Of a DNA stretch of 64,000 nt, positions 33,155 to 44,783 are shown piece after piece (the stretch's first letter is position 1; every line of letters begins with the position of its first letter). The notes below the pieces were generated by a model. It ran no database searches. It was not told the DNA's origin and worked only from the letters and a program-made list of their open reading frames with translations. The stretch spans positions 1 through 64,000 of IMG/VR virus record IMGVR_UViG_3300035691_000003; one strand, given 5' to 3'. The translations under genes were made by a program, and so were the position numbers. Source of the DNA: a virus.

Positions 33155-35212
33155 ATGAGCGACCTGACTATCTCCGCAGCCGGATTTACCATCCAGCCAC
33201 TCGTTGACGAGAGGGATGGTCCAGCGGAGATACGCTGGTACTACAACCGCGCCTTTCTCGATTCAGTAAACACACAGGTGCAGTGGGGGACCGGGACTAC
33301 CGGCTTCTGGGTGACGACACCCTGCTCGGTGGCTGCGGGGCTAGTGACGGTGGACCAGGACACGCTGCTCTGGACCACCGACGATGCCCAAGATCCAAAC
33401 CCCGGCTCAATCCTCCTCAGCGCCGGGCTGTATTCATCACGCGGCAAACTGGTCCAGCAGCTAACCATTATCGGCAAGTCGCAGTGGATTGTACCGTCCT
33501 CGCAAGCTCCAACTACCACCTGGGCCAACTTCGTCGCCTATAATTCCGCCGCCTTTCTCGCCAATCCACCACAGGTGTTTTACACCGCCGCGCAGGTGGA
33601 CGCGCTGGTGGACCGCTCCTTTGACGAACATCCAGCCACCGACGGCGACCTCGGCTCCGTGCTGCTGTCGGTCCCCGCTACCGTACCTGCTCAGCCAGTC
33701 GTCTGGGGCGCGAACGATCCGTTAGTCAGAGACGCGCTAAAGATTCAAGGCGTGGACGTGGTTAGCACCACCCCACTCGACACACAGGTGCTGGCCTATA
33801 ACCAGTCCAATAACCAGTGGGAACCGTCGAATCAAGCTGCGGGAACCGGGAATGTCGTCAGCAACGAGATTATCTCAGTCGATGGTGAGATTACGCTGTT
33901 TAGCGGGACCGGTGGGAAGACAATCAAGCGGGGTGGGTTCACCGGGCTGCTCAAGGCGCTGGCAGGAGTGGTATCAGCGGCAGTCGCAGCAGTGGATTAC
34001 GTTGTGCCGGGAGTGATTACCGGGAGCGGACTGACACAGGCCACCGCGCGCCTGTTGGGCCGCACAACGGCGTCTTCGGGAGCAGTGGAGGAAATCTCCG
34101 TCGGCACCGGGTTGCAACTCGCCGCCGGGGTACTGTCAAATACTGCTGCCGATACAGGTATCACGCAACTTACCGGAAACGTAACCGCTGGACCTGGAAG
34201 CGGCAGTCAGGTAGCGACAATTCCCAGTGACACCGTGATCTACGCAATGATGCAAAATGTCTCAGCAGCGGATAAGTTGCTCGGTCGCGGTAACAGCGGA
34301 GCCGGTGACGTGCAGGAGATTACACTCGGCACGAATCTCGCCATGAGCGGTACAACGCTCAATGCTTCAGCGGGTACTGGGACAGTCGGCAACGTCGGCA
34401 CGCTGACTACAAACCAAGTCATCCTTGGTGCGGGCGGCACCGACATTACCGCGCTTGGCTCACTAGGCACGACGGTGACGGTGCTGCATGGAAATGCCGC
34501 CGGTGCGCCGACCTTTGCGGTCGTGACCCCGGCAGACGCGGCGGGGAATACCAGCGGCTCGGGAAACTTTGCACTGGTTACGTCGCCAGTGTTTACCACC
34601 CCAACGCTCGGTGCAGCCACGGCCACATCCGTCAACGGCCTGACTATCACTTCGTCTACCGGCACGCTGACAATTACCAATGCCAAAGTGGTCAGCTTTA
34701 ACCACTCGCTGACCTTTGCAGGCACCGACTCGACAACGATGACGTTTCCCTCAACGTCGCAAACGATTGTCGGTCTTACTGCTACCCAGACACTTACCTC
34801 AAAGATTATCAGCCTGACGGCAGCCCACGGCACGGACGACACCTGTGAGGGGTTGCAGGTTACCGGCCTGAACGCCGGAGCGACAATTGCCCAATGGGAA
34901 ACTGTTTACCTTGACGGGTCATCGACGTGGCAACTAGCAGACGCCAATGGCAGTAGCACCTACCCCGCGCGAGGATTGGCAACGGCTGCCTATGTCAGTA
35001 CCAACCCAGCGGCAATTCTTGTTCGTGGAACGGTACGAAACGACGCTTGGAACTGGACGCCGGGAGGAGCACTCTATCTCTCGGGAACACCGGGAGGGCT
35101 GACACAAACCGCCCCCTCCACGTCGGGCGACAAGGTTCAAGTAGTGGGTTTTGCACTCACCGCCGACATCGCCTTCTTCGACTTCAATAGCACTTACCTG
35201 ACAGTGACTTAA
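33155..35212 (+). CDS. Long tail fibre protein (685 aa)
   Basis: Fibre repeats throughout: LLGRTTASSGAVEEISVGTG, NVTAGPGSGSQVATIPSDTV, LLGRGNSGAGDVQEITLGTN, GNFALVTSPVFTTPTLGAAT. These match the beta-stranded shaft repeats of many tailed-phage fibres. The N-terminal ~200 residues lack the repeat and probably attach to the tail. The C-terminal ~100 residues form a different, Cys-containing tip. Confidence 0.8.
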   Translation: MSDLTISAAGFTIQPLVDERDGPAEIRWYYNRAFLDSVNTQVQWGTGTTGFWVTTPCSVAAGLVTVDQDTLLWTTDDAQDPNPGSILLSAGLYSSRGKLVQQLTIIGKSQWIVPSSQAPTTTWANFVAYNSAAFLANPPQVFYTAAQVDALVDRSFDEHPATDGDLGSVLLSVPATVPAQPVVWGANDPLVRDALKIQGVDVVSTTPLDTQVLAYNQSNNQWEPSNQAAGTGNVVSNEIISVDGEITLFSGTGGKTIKRGGFTGLLKALAGVVSAAVAAVDYVVPGVITGSGLTQATARLLGRTTASSGAVEEISVGTGLQLAAGVLSNTAADTGITQLTGNVTAGPGSGSQVATIPSDTVIYAMMQNVSAADKLLGRGNSGAGDVQEITLGTNLAMSGTTLNASAGTGTVGNVGTLTTNQVILGAGGTDITALGSLGTTVTVLHGNAAGAPTFAVVTPADAAGNTSGSGNFALVTSPVFTTPTLGAATATSVNGLTITSSTGTLTITNAKVVSFNHSLTFAGTDSTTMTFPSTSQTIVGLTATQTLTSKIISLTAAHGTDDTCEGLQVTGLNAGATIAQWETVYLDGSSTWQLADANGSSTYPARGLATAAYVSTNPAAILVRGTVRNDAWNWTPGGALYLSGTPGGLTQTAPSTSGDKVQVVGFALTADIAFFDFNSTYLTVT

Positions 35213-35214
35213 AA

Positions 35215-36015
35215 ATGACAGTCAACGCAATCAACGGAGTCGCGCTCACTGCCCTCTCGGCAATCGACGGAGTGAGTCTGGCGATCCTGAACGCGGTGAG
35301 CGGGCAGACACTGGCAGCGACGACTGATCCGTTCTTCTCTAGCGTAGTACTACTCGTTCCGTGGAACGGCACTGATGGGCAGACTACGGCTACCGATCTC
35401 TCTAATGCGGCCCATACCTTATCGTTTCAAGCCAACGCGCAAATCGACACCGCGCAATCGTGGTTCGGAGGTTCGTCGCTGCTACTGGACGGCGACAGTG
35501 ACCGAGTAGAATCTGCCGATAGCGCCGATTGGACCATGGCGGCTGGTGACTGGACGATGGAGGCGTTCATCCGCGTCAACTCGTTTGCACTGGAGCCAAC
35601 CCAGACAATCTACAGTCACTACTCTTCAACCAGCAATCAACGCTCCTTCTGGTGGCGGTTTAACGCAACCACGATGGAGTTCATTTACTCCACCAACGGA
35701 ACCGCGACAACAACTATCTCCGGCTCGTTTACGTTTAACACCGGAACGTGGTACTACGTGGCGGCGAAGAGATCAACTACGTCGCTGATCCTGTATGCCG
35801 CAGTTGCCAGTGACCCAACAACTACCGTGATTCAAACCGGGGCCGTAGCGACGGACTCCTTCTTCAATTCCACTACCGTGCTTAGAATCGGCTCGGCCCA
35901 GTCTGCCGGAGTGAATGCCGCCGAACTGAATGGCTGGATGAACCAGACACGAATTACCAAAGGCGTTGCGCGTGATGTAAGCAACGTGCCGACTGCTCCA
36001 TTTCCGACATCATGA
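35215..36015 (+). CDS. LamG/concanavalin-like lectin domain protein (266 aa)
   Basis: Residues ~40-260 have the LamG-type pattern: [49 protein letters not shown] and [16 protein letters not shown]. Such domains bind carbohydrates and are frequent at phage fibre tips. It starts 2 nt after the long fibre gene and may be its tip or accessory lectin. Confidence 0.75.
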
Positions 36016-36022
36016 GACAATT

Positions 36023-37642
36023 ATGAAAACCCTGCTACTCATCCTACTGCTCCCCGCCGCGCTGCTGGCCCAGTCGGCCAACACCTTTCGCCAAGTCACC
36101 TTTGCCAACCTCGGCGTGCCGAACGATAACAACGTGCGCTACGTGACGGACGGCGGGGTTGATTCAGTGACCGGCAACTGTACCAGCGGCGGGTTTGGAG
36201 CCTATGCCTTCCGGGTGCAGACCGGCGCGACGACTTTTGTCTGGCGCTGCTCGGTGTTTGTGCCGGGTGGTGGAGGCACCGGGAATGGCGACGTGTCCAG
36301 CGATACGGCTACCGCATCAGTCGGCCAAGCGGCGGTCTTCTCCAACACCACCGGCAAGCAGATTGGCCGGTTTACTTCGTCGGGCTGGGTCAAAGCAACC
36401 GGCGGAGTGTTGACGACGGTGGCGAGTGTCAGCCTGGCGTCGGATGTCACCGGCAATCTCCCTGTGGTGAACTTGAACTCTGGCACTAACGCATCATCCG
36501 GCACCTTCTGGCGCGGCGACGGGCAGTGGGCTACACCGGTGGGTGCTGGTGATGTCAGCTCCAACACTGCCGTCTCAGTCAACGACGAGTTGGTCCTGTT
36601 CAACAGCACCAGCGGCAAGTCGATTAAGCGCGCGACGAGCAGCGGGCTGGTGAAGCTCACCTCGGGCGTGGCGTCAACTGTCGCTGCTCCAACCGGCACT
36701 ATCGTCGGCACGACGGATGCGCAACCACTGACCAACAAAACGATTGACGGCAGCCTGAACACGATTACCAACGTGTCGCTGGCAACCGGCGTAACCAGCA
36801 ACCTGCCAGTGACCCGGCTCAACTCCGGCACCGGGGCAAGTGGCTCAACCTTCTGGCGCGGCGATGGGACGTGGGCGACTCCCGCCGGGGCGGGCACCGT
36901 GACGAGTGTCGGCTTAGCACTGCCCAATATCTTCTCCGTCAGCGGCACACCGGTGATATCGTCAGGGACGCTAACTGCAACCCTCGCCACTCAGACGGCC
37001 AATACCGTGTTCAGTGGGCCAACCACCGGCAGCGCCGCCACGCCCACCTTCCGCGCGCTGGTGGCAGCCGACATCCCGGCGCTGGGCGCGTCGAAGATTA
37101 CCTCGGAGACAATGGCAACTGCTCGGCTGGGTAGTGGCGCGGCATCGTCGTCAACCTTCCTGCGCGGCGACCAGACCTGGGCTACCCCAACCGCCGGGGC
37201 GGGAGGCTCGACCACCCAATTTCAGTTCAACCTCACCGGCGCACTGGCAGGAGCGTCCAACTTCCTCTTCACCCCAGCCACCGGGCAGATGACGGCCAAT
37301 CAGGCAGGTAATGGCAACAACGTCTTCTACGGCAAGCGCGTGACCGACACCGGTCCTACCGGCAACTTCTTCCTGTTCCAGAACCAGGCAGGCACGGTGG
37401 ACTTGTTCAAGGTGGACGTGACTGGGGCGGTGATACTGAATTCAGCTACTGGCATACAGGATGTGCTGACGGTGCAGAAGGGGGTGCAGCTCACCACCGG
37501 CACGAGACCGACGTGCGACTCGACGACGCGCGGGACGTTCTGGTACGTGGCTGGAAGTGCCGGGGTGGCCGACACCGTGGCGGTGTGCGCCAAGAATTCT
37601 AGTGATGTTTTTTCGTGGGTTAGTATCGCCGCGATTCCATAA
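36023..37642 (+). CDS. Fibre-like protein with N-terminal signal peptide (539 aa)
   Basis: Starts [20 protein letters not shown], a classical signal peptide (basic start, Leu core, ALLA-Q cleavage site). The mature part is fibre repeat: [20 protein letters not shown] and [19 protein letters not shown], with [19 protein letters not shown] between. A secreted precursor is odd for a tail fibre, which is normally built in the cytoplasm. It may be exported to the host surface. Only weak GAGA is seen as a ribosome site. Confidence 0.75.
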
Positions 37643-37649
37643 GAGAACT

Positions 37650-40568
37650 ATGAGACCTTTAATTCTACTTGCCCTACTCGCCCTCCCCGTCGCCGCCCAA
37701 ACACCGCCCGGCACCCACATCACCCTCGACGGTTCATCTCAGTACCTGAGCGGCACTACTCCAACTGGGACGAGGCAGTTGCGCGAAGTGTCATCACGCA
37801 TGACCAGCGCGCGGATTGGTCACACCACCGACCAAGTGCTATTCGACTGGACCGGCGTAGGGACGCTGTATATCAAGGCGGTGAGCGGCACCACCACCAA
37901 CCTGCAATTTGTTCCCGCCACCGGCACCGGCACCACCACGGTAAACATCAGCGCCTTCACCACCGGATTCATCTATCGCTTCGCCTATGACGACATCGGG
38001 CCGAATATGGCCTACCTGTTGCAAGCGTGGGATGCGCGGGGTGATCCAAAGACGGTGGTCTCAGCAGTGCAAACCGCCTCGGTCTCATCTATCGACCCCA
38101 ACAACCGCGCCTTTCGCATCGGAGCGAAGCTCGACGGCACGCTCCACCTGCAAGCCGACATCGACTTCTGGCGCTGGCACGACCAATGGATTCCCCAATA
38201 CCCACAGGCCAGTGCGCCGGGATTACAGCTCCCCTACCCGACGTTTGCCGAGAACTGGCTGGCCTGCCACTCGATTAACGGGAATGAGAACTGGGTTGAT
38301 TATCGGTTTGAGAATGACCTGACGAACTCCGGCACTCTGACCATGCCGCTGACCGCGACAGGCGCACCGACATTCGCGGCCAATTCCAACACCCGCCCAA
38401 CTGCTTATGGCGAGGATCTAACCGGCGTAGCCAAAGGCCGTCTCCCGCTCAATGGCACCTTCTCTTATGACTACGACTCCAGCGGGCTGGTGCCGACGAA
38501 TCTCTCCGATACCCTGTCCACCAACTGGACCTGCGTGTCGGCTCCCGGCGCGGGCTGTGGGGCGCTAACTATCCGCCAGCCAACCCGGCTGTTTACCTGG
38601 GCCGATGGCGGCACGACTGTCGGCACCTACACGTTTACCTTCAGCGTCTCTGACGGCTCGTCAACTGACACCGACACCGTAACCATCCAGGTCGGGGCTG
38701 TCACCGCCTCAGTCGGCACCACCACCTGCTTCATCGATGAGCCATGCTTCATTGACGCATCCGCATCAACCAACTGGGACTCCATCAACGTGGATTTCGG
38801 CGAGAGCATTCCCGGCTCCTCGCTCCACTACGCAATGAGCATTCCCAAGGGCGTGCATCGCTATCACGCGGCGGGGGACTATACGGTGACGGTCTCAGCA
38901 CGGGATGCGCAACCGTCTCCGGTGACGGCCACCGCAACCACCACCATCACAGTCAGCGCCCGCGCAGAAGCCGACGCCGCCAACACTGAAGACCTAACCA
39001 ACCCACTCAACGCCAACTACATCTCCCCGGCTAATTGCACTGGGGACGCAGCCGGGAATCTCACCAAGGTGCAGGCAGCACTGGACATCGCCAAGAGCCG
39101 TAATACCGTGGCGCAGAAGGTGGTCCTGCCTGCCGGGTGTCGGGCCGATGGGCAACTCACCGCCAAGGTGCCGGTTGGTAGTGCGTATATCACGGTGATT
39201 AGCTCCGGCACGCTGCCGCCATCACACAAGCGCATCACCCCCGGCGACATTGCTCAGATGTTCACTGTGCGTGGGACGACGAACAACCTCTCGCCTCTCA
39301 TCAGCGACCTGGCGGGTACGTCGCACCATTACAAGTTTCGAGGGATCGTGTTCGAGACCAGCGTCCAGCAGTTTGCGATTGTCGAACTGGGCGCACCGTC
39401 AGTTGAAGATTCAGCAGCGGAAATCTCGCACCACTTCATCATTCAGCACTGCATCATTCGCCCGACCGATGAGTTCTCGGTCAATATCCAGAACGGGATT
39501 CTCTACAACGCCAATGACGTAGCGATCATCGACAGCTACATCTACCCGATGTCTTCATCCGGCATCGAATCCCACAACCTGCTCACCTATTCAGCCGAGG
39601 GCCGTCACGCGATTGATAACAATTTCCTCGGCGGCTCATCCATCAACTACTTCGTCGGCGGTGCAACCACTATTGTGCGCGGCATGGTGCCGTCTTATAT
39701 CGAGTTCAACGAGAACTATCTGACTCACCCACTGACGTGGCAGCCTTCTAACCCAGCCTGGGACGGCAAGACGCGCGGGGTGAAGAACCTGTGGGAGCTG
39801 AAGACCGGGAGCTATGTATCAGCACGGGGCAATAAGATTGAGAACAACTGGACTGATGCGCAGCAGGGTATCGGCGCGTTCTTCCAAGCTACCTGCGACT
39901 CCGGCAATTGGGCCACGGCGAATTACATCGACTGGGGCTACAACTGGCTGTACAACATCGAGAAGGGAGTGGAGTTTCGCGGGTCTGAGTATCGCGGCAC
40001 CGTGCAGTCGCGCAAGGTGTGGTTCTCAAATATCCTAATGGAAGCGCTGACGAACCGCGCGATTACCTTTATCCAGGCGTGGGAGCCACGTATTAACCAT
40101 GTCACCATGCTGGCGGTCACTAACCACTCGGCGGTGATGGACGGCGAGATGCGCGGGCCGGGGTTTATGTACGAGAACTCGATTGCTTATGAAGGGGCGT
40201 TTGGCTGGTTCGGCTCCGGGTTCTCCACCGGCACGCCGAGTTTGAACATCTACTTCCCTGGGTTTATATTCACCAGCTCGTTGCAGGTGGGTGGGTCGGC
40301 GGGGAGTTACTCTGCACCTATCACAGCTATGCAGTTCCCGGCCAGTCAGGCAGCGGTGGGGTTTACCGACCCAGCTAGCGGCAACTGGAGCTTGGCGGCG
40401 AGTTCGCCGTACAAGGGCGACGCCAACGACGGCACCGACCCAGGCGTCAACTGGGTGGACCTGCAAGCCCACTTGCTCAACACCGTCAGCGGCAACTGGA
40501 CGACGGTACGCGGGGCTGGAATGAGTGGAAAAGCGACAATTAGCGGCAAGGGGGTGGTAGTTCAGTGA
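37650..40568 (+). CDS. Large beta-helix/PKD surface protein with signal peptide (972 aa)
   Basis: Start ATG 37650 gives MRPLILLALLALPVAAQTPP, a signal peptide (VAA-Q). Then come a LamG-like region (~20-210), an Ig/PKD-like domain (SVSDGSSTDTDTVTIQVGAV; GVHRYHAAGDYTVTVSARDA) and a right-handed beta-helix from ~450 (NYISPANCTGDAAGNLTKVQ). Beta-helices in phage spikes often cut or bind polysaccharides. The combination of signal and spike architecture resembles a secreted bacterial surface protein taken up by the phage. No catalytic residues could be assigned. Confidence 0.75.
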   Translation: MRPLILLALLALPVAAQTPPGTHITLDGSSQYLSGTTPTGTRQLREVSSRMTSARIGHTTDQVLFDWTGVGTLYIKAVSGTTTNLQFVPATGTGTTTVNISAFTTGFIYRFAYDDIGPNMAYLLQAWDARGDPKTVVSAVQTASVSSIDPNNRAFRIGAKLDGTLHLQADIDFWRWHDQWIPQYPQASAPGLQLPYPTFAENWLACHSINGNENWVDYRFENDLTNSGTLTMPLTATGAPTFAANSNTRPTAYGEDLTGVAKGRLPLNGTFSYDYDSSGLVPTNLSDTLSTNWTCVSAPGAGCGALTIRQPTRLFTWADGGTTVGTYTFTFSVSDGSSTDTDTVTIQVGAVTASVGTTTCFIDEPCFIDASASTNWDSINVDFGESIPGSSLHYAMSIPKGVHRYHAAGDYTVTVSARDAQPSPVTATATTTITVSARAEADAANTEDLTNPLNANYISPANCTGDAAGNLTKVQAALDIAKSRNTVAQKVVLPAGCRADGQLTAKVPVGSAYITVISSGTLPPSHKRITPGDIAQMFTVRGTTNNLSPLISDLAGTSHHYKFRGIVFETSVQQFAIVELGAPSVEDSAAEISHHFIIQHCIIRPTDEFSVNIQNGILYNANDVAIIDSYIYPMSSSGIESHNLLTYSAEGRHAIDNNFLGGSSINYFVGGATTIVRGMVPSYIEFNENYLTHPLTWQPSNPAWDGKTRGVKNLWELKTGSYVSARGNKIENNWTDAQQGIGAFFQATCDSGNWATANYIDWGYNWLYNIEKGVEFRGSEYRGTVQSRKVWFSNILMEALTNRAITFIQAWEPRINHVTMLAVTNHSAVMDGEMRGPGFMYENSIAYEGAFGWFGSGFSTGTPSLNIYFPGFIFTSSLQVGGSAGSYSAPITAMQFPASQAAVGFTDPASGNWSLAASSPYKGDANDGTDPGVNWVDLQAHLLNTVSGNWTTVRGAGMSGKATISGKGVVVQ

Positions 40569-40637: not shown

Positions 40638-41138
40638 ATGAATAGACGACAGTTCACATGGCGCGGGATTCTTACCTTCTTAGTCCTCGGATTCGCTGGC
40701 AGCGCTTTCAAGTGCGACTCCGATAAGGTATCAATCTACGTACTGACCATCACCAACTTTCTCAAACAGATTTCCTCTATCATGCCGCAGTGGGCGGCGA
40801 CAATTACCAAGATTCTGGCAGTCGCAACCGACTTCGATGCCGCCTACAAGCATGGCGACTTCTCCAGCGCCGACAACCTGTTCAACACGCTCGACGAGAA
40901 CATCCTAACGCTGACCAAAGACTTGGGCGTCAACCTCAGCGACCATGTGAAAATGCTGCTGGCGGTGATTGGGGCGACGGTGCAGACGGTGGCTGTGTTG
41001 CTGCATGAGCAGATTATGAAGCAACCGGCGTCGGCTATCGCAGCGGCCCGCGCGGCGAAGTCCAGCAACGCAGTGGAACGGTTGTCGGCCCCAGCGGCGG
41101 TCAATGCAACCTTTGAAACGGCTAAACTGAAGCCGTAA
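40638..41138 (+). CDS. Exported or membrane-anchored protein (166 aa)
   Basis: The start MNRRQFTWRGILTFLVLGFA has a twin-arginine and a hydrophobic segment ending GSAFKC, a poor lipobox (Lys at -1). The rest is amphipathic helix (EQIMKQPASAIAAARAAKSS) with a second hydrophobic stretch (LLAVIGATVQTVAVLL). An exported or two-pass membrane protein near the lysis group. The AGGAGG-type site at 40625 supports the start. Confidence 0.6.
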   Translation: MNRRQFTWRGILTFLVLGFAGSAFKCDSDKVSIYVLTITNFLKQISSIMPQWAATITKILAVATDFDAAYKHGDFSSADNLFNTLDENILTLTKDLGVNLSDHVKMLLAVIGATVQTVAVLLHEQIMKQPASAIAAARAAKSSNAVERLSAPAAVNATFETAKLKP

Positions 41139-44531: not shown

Positions 44532-44783
44532 CTAGTTCACAATCGGGCAACCATGGGCTTCCATGCACCCCTTGTAAATACCGGCGGCGTGCGTCACGCA
44601 TCCCTTGAACTGGTCTGGGGTTATATCGTCTCCGTAGACTATTACACAGCTGAGCATGTCGGCGTCGGCAAGGCCCTCACATGCGGCGTTAGCCTGATCG
44701 CAGGGAATAAACGCAGCCGATCCAGTGGGCGTGACTAGCAGCCCTATGGTGAGCAATGCCAGTATGATTAGTTTTCGTCTCAT
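44532..44783 (-). CDS. Small secreted cysteine-containing protein (83 aa)
   Basis: Starts MRRKLIILALLTIGLLVTPT, a signal peptide with likely cleavage near TGSAA; the mature part (~58 aa) has six or more Cys (CDQANAACEG; LSCVIVYGD; GCVTHAAGIYKGCMEAHGC) that could form disulfides in the periplasm. GGAGAG precedes the start. It is the only clear gene inside the 2-kb hairpin-rich region. Function is unknown; a host-surface or exclusion role is possible. Confidence 0.6.
   Translation of the reverse strand: MRRKLIILALLTIGLLVTPTGSAAFIPCDQANAACEGLADADMLSCVIVYGDDITPDQFKGCVTHAAGIYKGCMEAHGCPIVN

Follow-up and report, generated by a model that had tools for sequence, protein, structure and literature searches.

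Predicted secretion signals on adjacent fibre and spike genes of an uncultivated phage and on cysteine-rich fibres of other viral contigs

The window analysed here is a 64 kb stretch of DNA (64,000 nucleotides) out of the 74,840-base record of an uncultivated virus in IMG/VR. Its genes include those for a terminase, a major head protein, a Dda-like helicase and an exonuclease, as well as tail-fibre-type genes. TerL had no match among cultured phages in the host search, and a search with a defence-system library gave no match. Late in the structural block, an ordinary fibre gene and a LamG-type gene are followed by two genes, named here P1 and P2, and by the gene at 40638–41138. The features of this segment are the following (SP, signal peptide).

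33155–35212, plus strand: ordinary fibre of 685 aa without SP; repeats paralogous to those of P1; counterparts without SP in related phages.
35215–36015, plus strand: LamG/ConA-like lectin-type protein without SP; matches phage baseplate/virion families.
36023–37642, plus strand: P1, fibre-repeat protein of 539 aa with a predicted Sec-type SP; cysteine pairs 53/76 (N-terminal domain) and 498/522 (C-terminal knob).
36023–36070, plus strand: P1 signal peptide by rule-based score, predicted cleavage between LLA and Q; SP character kept in two homologues.
37650–40568, plus strand: P2, 972 aa, with predicted SP MRPLILLALLALPVAA cleaved before Q; PKD/Ig-like and putative beta-helix regions; C-terminal tag SGKATISGK.
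37650–37697, plus strand: P2 signal peptide by rule-based score, predicted cleavage between VAA and Q.
40503–40568, plus strand: C-terminal 21 residues of P2; the tag, here in the form GKATISGK, is found in all three second-slot proteins (see below).
40638–41138, plus strand: third consecutive exported-looking protein by rule-based score, twin-arginine-like leader MNRRQFTWRG; homologue in contig L083.

The ATG of P1 lies 7 bases past the preceding stop codon and a 7-base gap separates P1 from P2. The start of P2 is position 37650; the mechanically called ORF of 1003 aa begins too early, at a GTG at 37557. Past the structural block and on the opposite strand, positions 44532–44783 encode an 83-aa protein with a strong signal peptide and six cysteines.

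Signal peptides were scored by rule, on a positive n-region, an uncharged hydrophobic 9-mer and small residues at −3 and −1. The structural block has 37 genes on the plus strand, of which three passed, namely the consecutive genes P1, P2 and 40638–41138. Both the P1 leader and that of P2 (MRPLILLALLALPVAA, predicted to be cleaved before QTPP) have the features of Sec/SPI signals under this rule, the residue at −3 being L in P1 and V in P2. The background rate in other viral loci is about 3% of non-fibre genes (20/580, many of which adjoin fibres with a signal peptide), so that two textbook signal peptides side by side are unlikely to occur by chance. A first-pass annotation had reported export signals on two adjacent genes at this position and had argued that export of such proteins needs an explanation. 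The rule-based score and the presence of a signal peptide on the P1 homologues of two other phages bear out the former; the signals look real, and the latter stands too. The leaders of P1 and P2 thus resemble genuine Sec-type signals, and export of the two proteins is a prediction with good, if indirect, support. The protein encoded at 40638–41138 is homologous to that of L083:18268-18759 (31%, 5e-21) and both have twin-arginine-like leaders (MNRRQF and MHRRSF); this pair is a possible Tat-exported phage protein.

P1 is a fibre by its repeats, which are shared by hundreds of phage ORFs (590 relatives in viral contigs before limits were applied), and by its location in the structural module. 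It is also homologous to the ordinary fibre encoded two genes upstream at 33155 (27%, 4e-16), in agreement with the fibre label it had been given. The cysteine pairs 53/76 and 498/522 are retained in P1 and in its two homologues (P0002 of contig L082 and P0004 of contig L002), whose additional cysteines also occur in pairs. Neither P1 nor the P1 alignment gave a significant match to PDB chains by sequence. AlphaFold models of P1 and P2 were poor (mean pLDDT 33–35).

P2 has PKD/Ig domain matches and is homologous, over its beta-helix half, to a repeat-rich protein of L082 (28% identity, 2e-25). The earlier label of beta-helix protein fits these matches; the fold is a reading of the sequence (model pLDDT 33) and the N-terminus may be lectin-like. 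Pfam gave no enzyme match for P2, P0003 or P0005, and for P2 neither an enzymatic nor a receptor match was found. P2 had no detectable match among solved structures in the PDB by sequence, and neither P2 nor its L082 homologue matched cultured phages or plasmids. P2 was also compared, as a single sequence and as a two-sequence profile, with 84,980 genomes of bacteria and archaea; these pattern-based scans, which detect close relatives only, found none.

Two related contigs encode P1: L082 (71,949 bases), which has 81% identity to the window in a nearby transferase-like gene, and L002 (73,583 bases). The homologues share 64% (P0002, L082) and 62% (P0004, L002) identity with P1. Their leaders, MKSLLITLVIPIVVMAQA in L082 and MSKAFSWAFVIIIASFMSVQGQA in L002, have the same signal peptide character, and the leader DNA of the window and of L082 differs at 22 of 57 nucleotides. 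In both contigs the P1 gene and the one that follows it share an ATGA overlap, and the product of the latter also starts with a signal peptide (MRLRFLLSLTLTTLLVVSA... in L082, MIRHLLYVLLFIPFASVSISAQA in L002). The second slot comprises positions 37650–40568 of the window, L082:16856-19156 and L002:9524-11014. The body of its protein is homologous between the window and L082 and has no evident relation to these in L002. All three proteins end with a C-terminal tag G[KR]xx[LI]SGK that is absent from the other C-termini among 3,875 ORFs; the motif was derived from the same three proteins, and the count is a measure of its specificity rather than an independent test. It is possibly a docking or sorting tag. 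L083, a third related contig, lacks P1 and P2 and keeps the ordinary fibre, which shows the pair to be accessory. From the comparison of these phages, the second slot is an accessory position in which a leader and a tag flank an exchangeable body, beside a conserved, presumably exported fibre. Its proteins do not follow the even cysteine parity of the fibres described below (9 cysteines in P2, 5 in its L082 counterpart, 4 in the third). With odd counts in P2 and in its L082 counterpart, the case for disulfides is carried by the fibres and not by P2.

Other features were observed in L002. Residues 77–155 of P0005 (L002:9524-11014), which bears a signal peptide, are similar to a chain of a phage distal tail protein (PDB 23gd, 7.5e-6), the sole relevant match of the PDB sequence searches. 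An antisense HNH-type ORF (L002:7290-8050) lies at the junction between signal peptide and mature part of the L002 P1 gene. Upstream, the stub of an old leader (MRRLLILILLLPGMAYSQAAN) persists, and the intact ORF is headed by a different leader. Rfam found no group I intron at this gene.

The association between signal peptides and fibres was surveyed in a set of 188 complete, deduplicated fibres obtained by a scan with the P1 repeats and by three more scans with other signal peptide-bearing fibres. A signal peptide was present in 29 of these 188 (18 N-terminal families) and absent from 159, a proportion that is not a population frequency since the set was gathered by similarity to four fibres that carry one. 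The median cysteine content of the mature part is 1.13 per 100 aa in fibres with a signal peptide and 0.27 in those without, about a 4-fold difference (p = 6e-11). Fibres devoid of cysteine account for 45/159 of the latter and for none of the former. The cysteine count is even in 25 of the 29 fibres with a signal peptide, compared to 43 of the 114 cysteine-containing fibres that lack one (Fisher p = 2e-6). These p-values are inflated by related sequences and the test at the level of N-terminal families (18 versus 53) is safer; the density difference holds there (p = 2e-5), with an even count in 14/18. Non-fibre genes without signal peptide from the same contigs show no difference in cysteine content (mean 1.08 versus 1.07, p = 0.31), which argues against a composition effect. 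The rule missed the leader of several cysteine-rich fibres classified as lacking one (L135, L219, L303), so that the comparison errs, if at all, on the low side. Proteins that fold in an oxidising envelope are expected to have paired cysteines, and fibres assembled in the cytoplasm are not. Their excess and parity support disulfide-forming, hence extracytoplasmic, folding of the fibres with predicted signal peptides.

A neighbour with a signal peptide is found within two genes of 17/26 of these fibres, compared to 14/143 of those without signal peptide. Q follows the cleavage site in 13 of the 29, in many contigs, and is therefore not specific to the phage of the window. The Acidobacteriota host that the first-pass annotation proposed from this cleavage style is a conjecture, and no host genome was linked to the phage. 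Where tested, the contigs carry baseplate, tail, head-closure and virion structural genes, and the fibres thus belong to phages rather than to host debris. An ordinary fibre is also present in the window, L082, L002, L148, L223 and L273. Fibres with a signal peptide were the sole kind detected in the examined flank of several contigs (e.g., L042, L106, L117, L242, L281). No signal peptide was found on the matching fibres of cultured phages in the six records inspected, and in the open-access literature, mostly titles and abstracts, the pattern of signal peptide-bearing tailed-phage fibres appeared in no title or abstract. The leaders of the fibres L015:7554-9950 and L018:7560-9962 have a lipobox-like LSGC and these are possible lipoprotein tail fibres. 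A signal peptide-bearing carbohydrate esterase (SASA, 2e-14; L068:10136-11179) adjoins a fibre with a signal peptide.

The explanation we favour, to which we give an even chance, is that the phage has accessory forms of its own fibre and spike, P1 and P2, which are exported and act at the host surface. Export itself draws support from signal peptides that are conserved in character, recur in unrelated phages and track cysteines of the disulfide type. The succession of a fibre and a lectin gene without signal peptide by a fibre and a spike gene that have one, the latter pair being dispensable and the body of its spike exchangeable, points to a copy of the adhesion apparatus that is exported. 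The host Sec pathway would carry P1 and P2 out of the cytoplasm during infection, signal peptidase would cleave their leaders and P1 would acquire its disulfides in the oxidising compartment of the envelope. The mature P1 fibre and the exchangeable P2 spike, probably glycan-binding or glycan-modifying, would then act on the surface of the infected cell, where they may occupy or trim the surface glycans used by the virion fibre. The benefit might be to keep progeny and competitors from re-adsorbing to the producing cell or its debris. Among the explanations listed in the first-pass annotation, surface action or receptor masking fares best.

Export of a receptor-inactivating protein has a precedent in phage T5, whose Llp is an exported envelope lipoprotein that inactivates the RBP receptor and blocks re-adsorption of the same phage (PMC9586334). 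A masking role of P1/P2 would be functionally alike, and the LSGC of the L015 and L018 fibres recalls its lipobox. Llp is, however, a small periplasmic FhuA-binding lipoprotein while P1 and P2 are large (539 and 972 aa), of SPI type and without lipobox. The MAT superfamily of Bdellovibrio combines a signal peptide with phage-like trimeric fibres on the predator surface, 13 of 21 with S74 domains (PMC10769870). P1 resembles these surface-displayed fibres by its signal peptide, the domain that follows it directly and a shaft like that of phage tail fibres; MAT proteins are cellular and chromosomally encoded whereas P1 is encoded by a phage, and it has no significant sequence match to solved MAT fibre tips, so that any similarity to them would be remote. 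WceF of Pantoea is a Tat-exported glycosidase with a tailspike-like beta-helix fold (PMC7949094), likewise a tailspike-type protein with an export signal that is used outside the cytoplasm, but it is a host gene product of an EPS operon and uses Tat, P2 being a predicted Sec substrate. The comparison suggests that P1 and P2 are structurally more like the Bdellovibrio surface fibres and WceF than like T5 Llp. Ordinary tailed-phage fibres (with DUF5907-type or GDGTW repeats) have the repeats and genomic position of P1; they differ by the absence of a signal peptide and by few, often unpaired, cysteines.

The main rival is that the signal peptide-bearing fibres are virion parts exported first, folded and disulfide-bonded outside, and docked to virions at lysis. 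Such a fibre would be stabilised by extracellular disulfides, and the genes lie within tail and head modules of many phages, beside baseplate, tail and head-closure genes; the contigs in which they are the sole fibre genes detected fit a virion role better than the surface role favoured here. The pair is nevertheless dispensable in L083, an ordinary fibre is always present in the window, L082 and L002, and we know of no tailed phage that adds its own fibre from outside, which makes this route rather unlikely. It is also unlikely that the proteins are secreted enzymes that degrade glycans or modify the matrix and so open what encloses the infected cell, allowing release and spread; P1 would then carry the P2 enzyme or serve as its adhesin, and the system would be a secreted depolymerase and not a receptor mask. 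The beta-helix type assigned to P2 is common among polysaccharide-acting proteins, the L068 esterase provides a carbohydrate-active neighbour with its own signal peptide, and WceF shows that a glycosidase of tailspike fold can be exported (PMC7949094). Export would be needless for proteins freed at lysis, and P2, P0003 and P0005 are without enzyme match in Pfam.

Since export is predicted from sequence, the leaders might instead be uncleaved hydrophobic segments that stay in the cytoplasm and serve for virion attachment or membrane contact. We consider this improbable in view of the n-, h- and c-regions and AxA-Q-type sites found across many families, and of the cysteine excess and parity restricted to the fibres that bear such leaders. 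Recent capture of host exoproteins, another of the earlier proposals, has the least to recommend it and appears very improbable. PKD, Ig and beta-helix domains such as those of P2 are common in bacterial exoproteins, but P1 consists of repeats known from phage fibres and has a homologue in the ordinary fibre of the same phage, and at 62.7% and 59.3% GC the two genes lie close to the phage average (58.3% in the window). No close bacterial relative was found for P2 in scans that are weak, and its beta-helix half is shared with a related phage at 28% identity only, so that P2 is not a recent arrival.

We see an even chance that a widespread and unrecognised class of tailed phages produces fibre proteins that are Sec-exported and disulfide-bonded, alongside further exported proteins whose body is exchangeable and which share, in the family of the window, a C-terminal tag. 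The infected cell would then show on its surface or secrete a decoy of the apparatus by which the phage binds its receptor, or else fibres that matured beyond the cytoplasm would be added to virions. It is assumed that tailed phages both produce their virion fibres and put them together in the cytoplasm. Should fibre-like proteins be exported by many environmental phages, some annotated “tail fibres”, genes that serve in host-range prediction, would not be virion parts, or a new assembly route would exist. The cysteine signature provides a cheap sequence test that is independent of signal peptide predictors. Export-tagged fibres with paired cysteines in many unrelated environmental phages suggest that fibre copies are sent outside the infected cell and not only into the particle.
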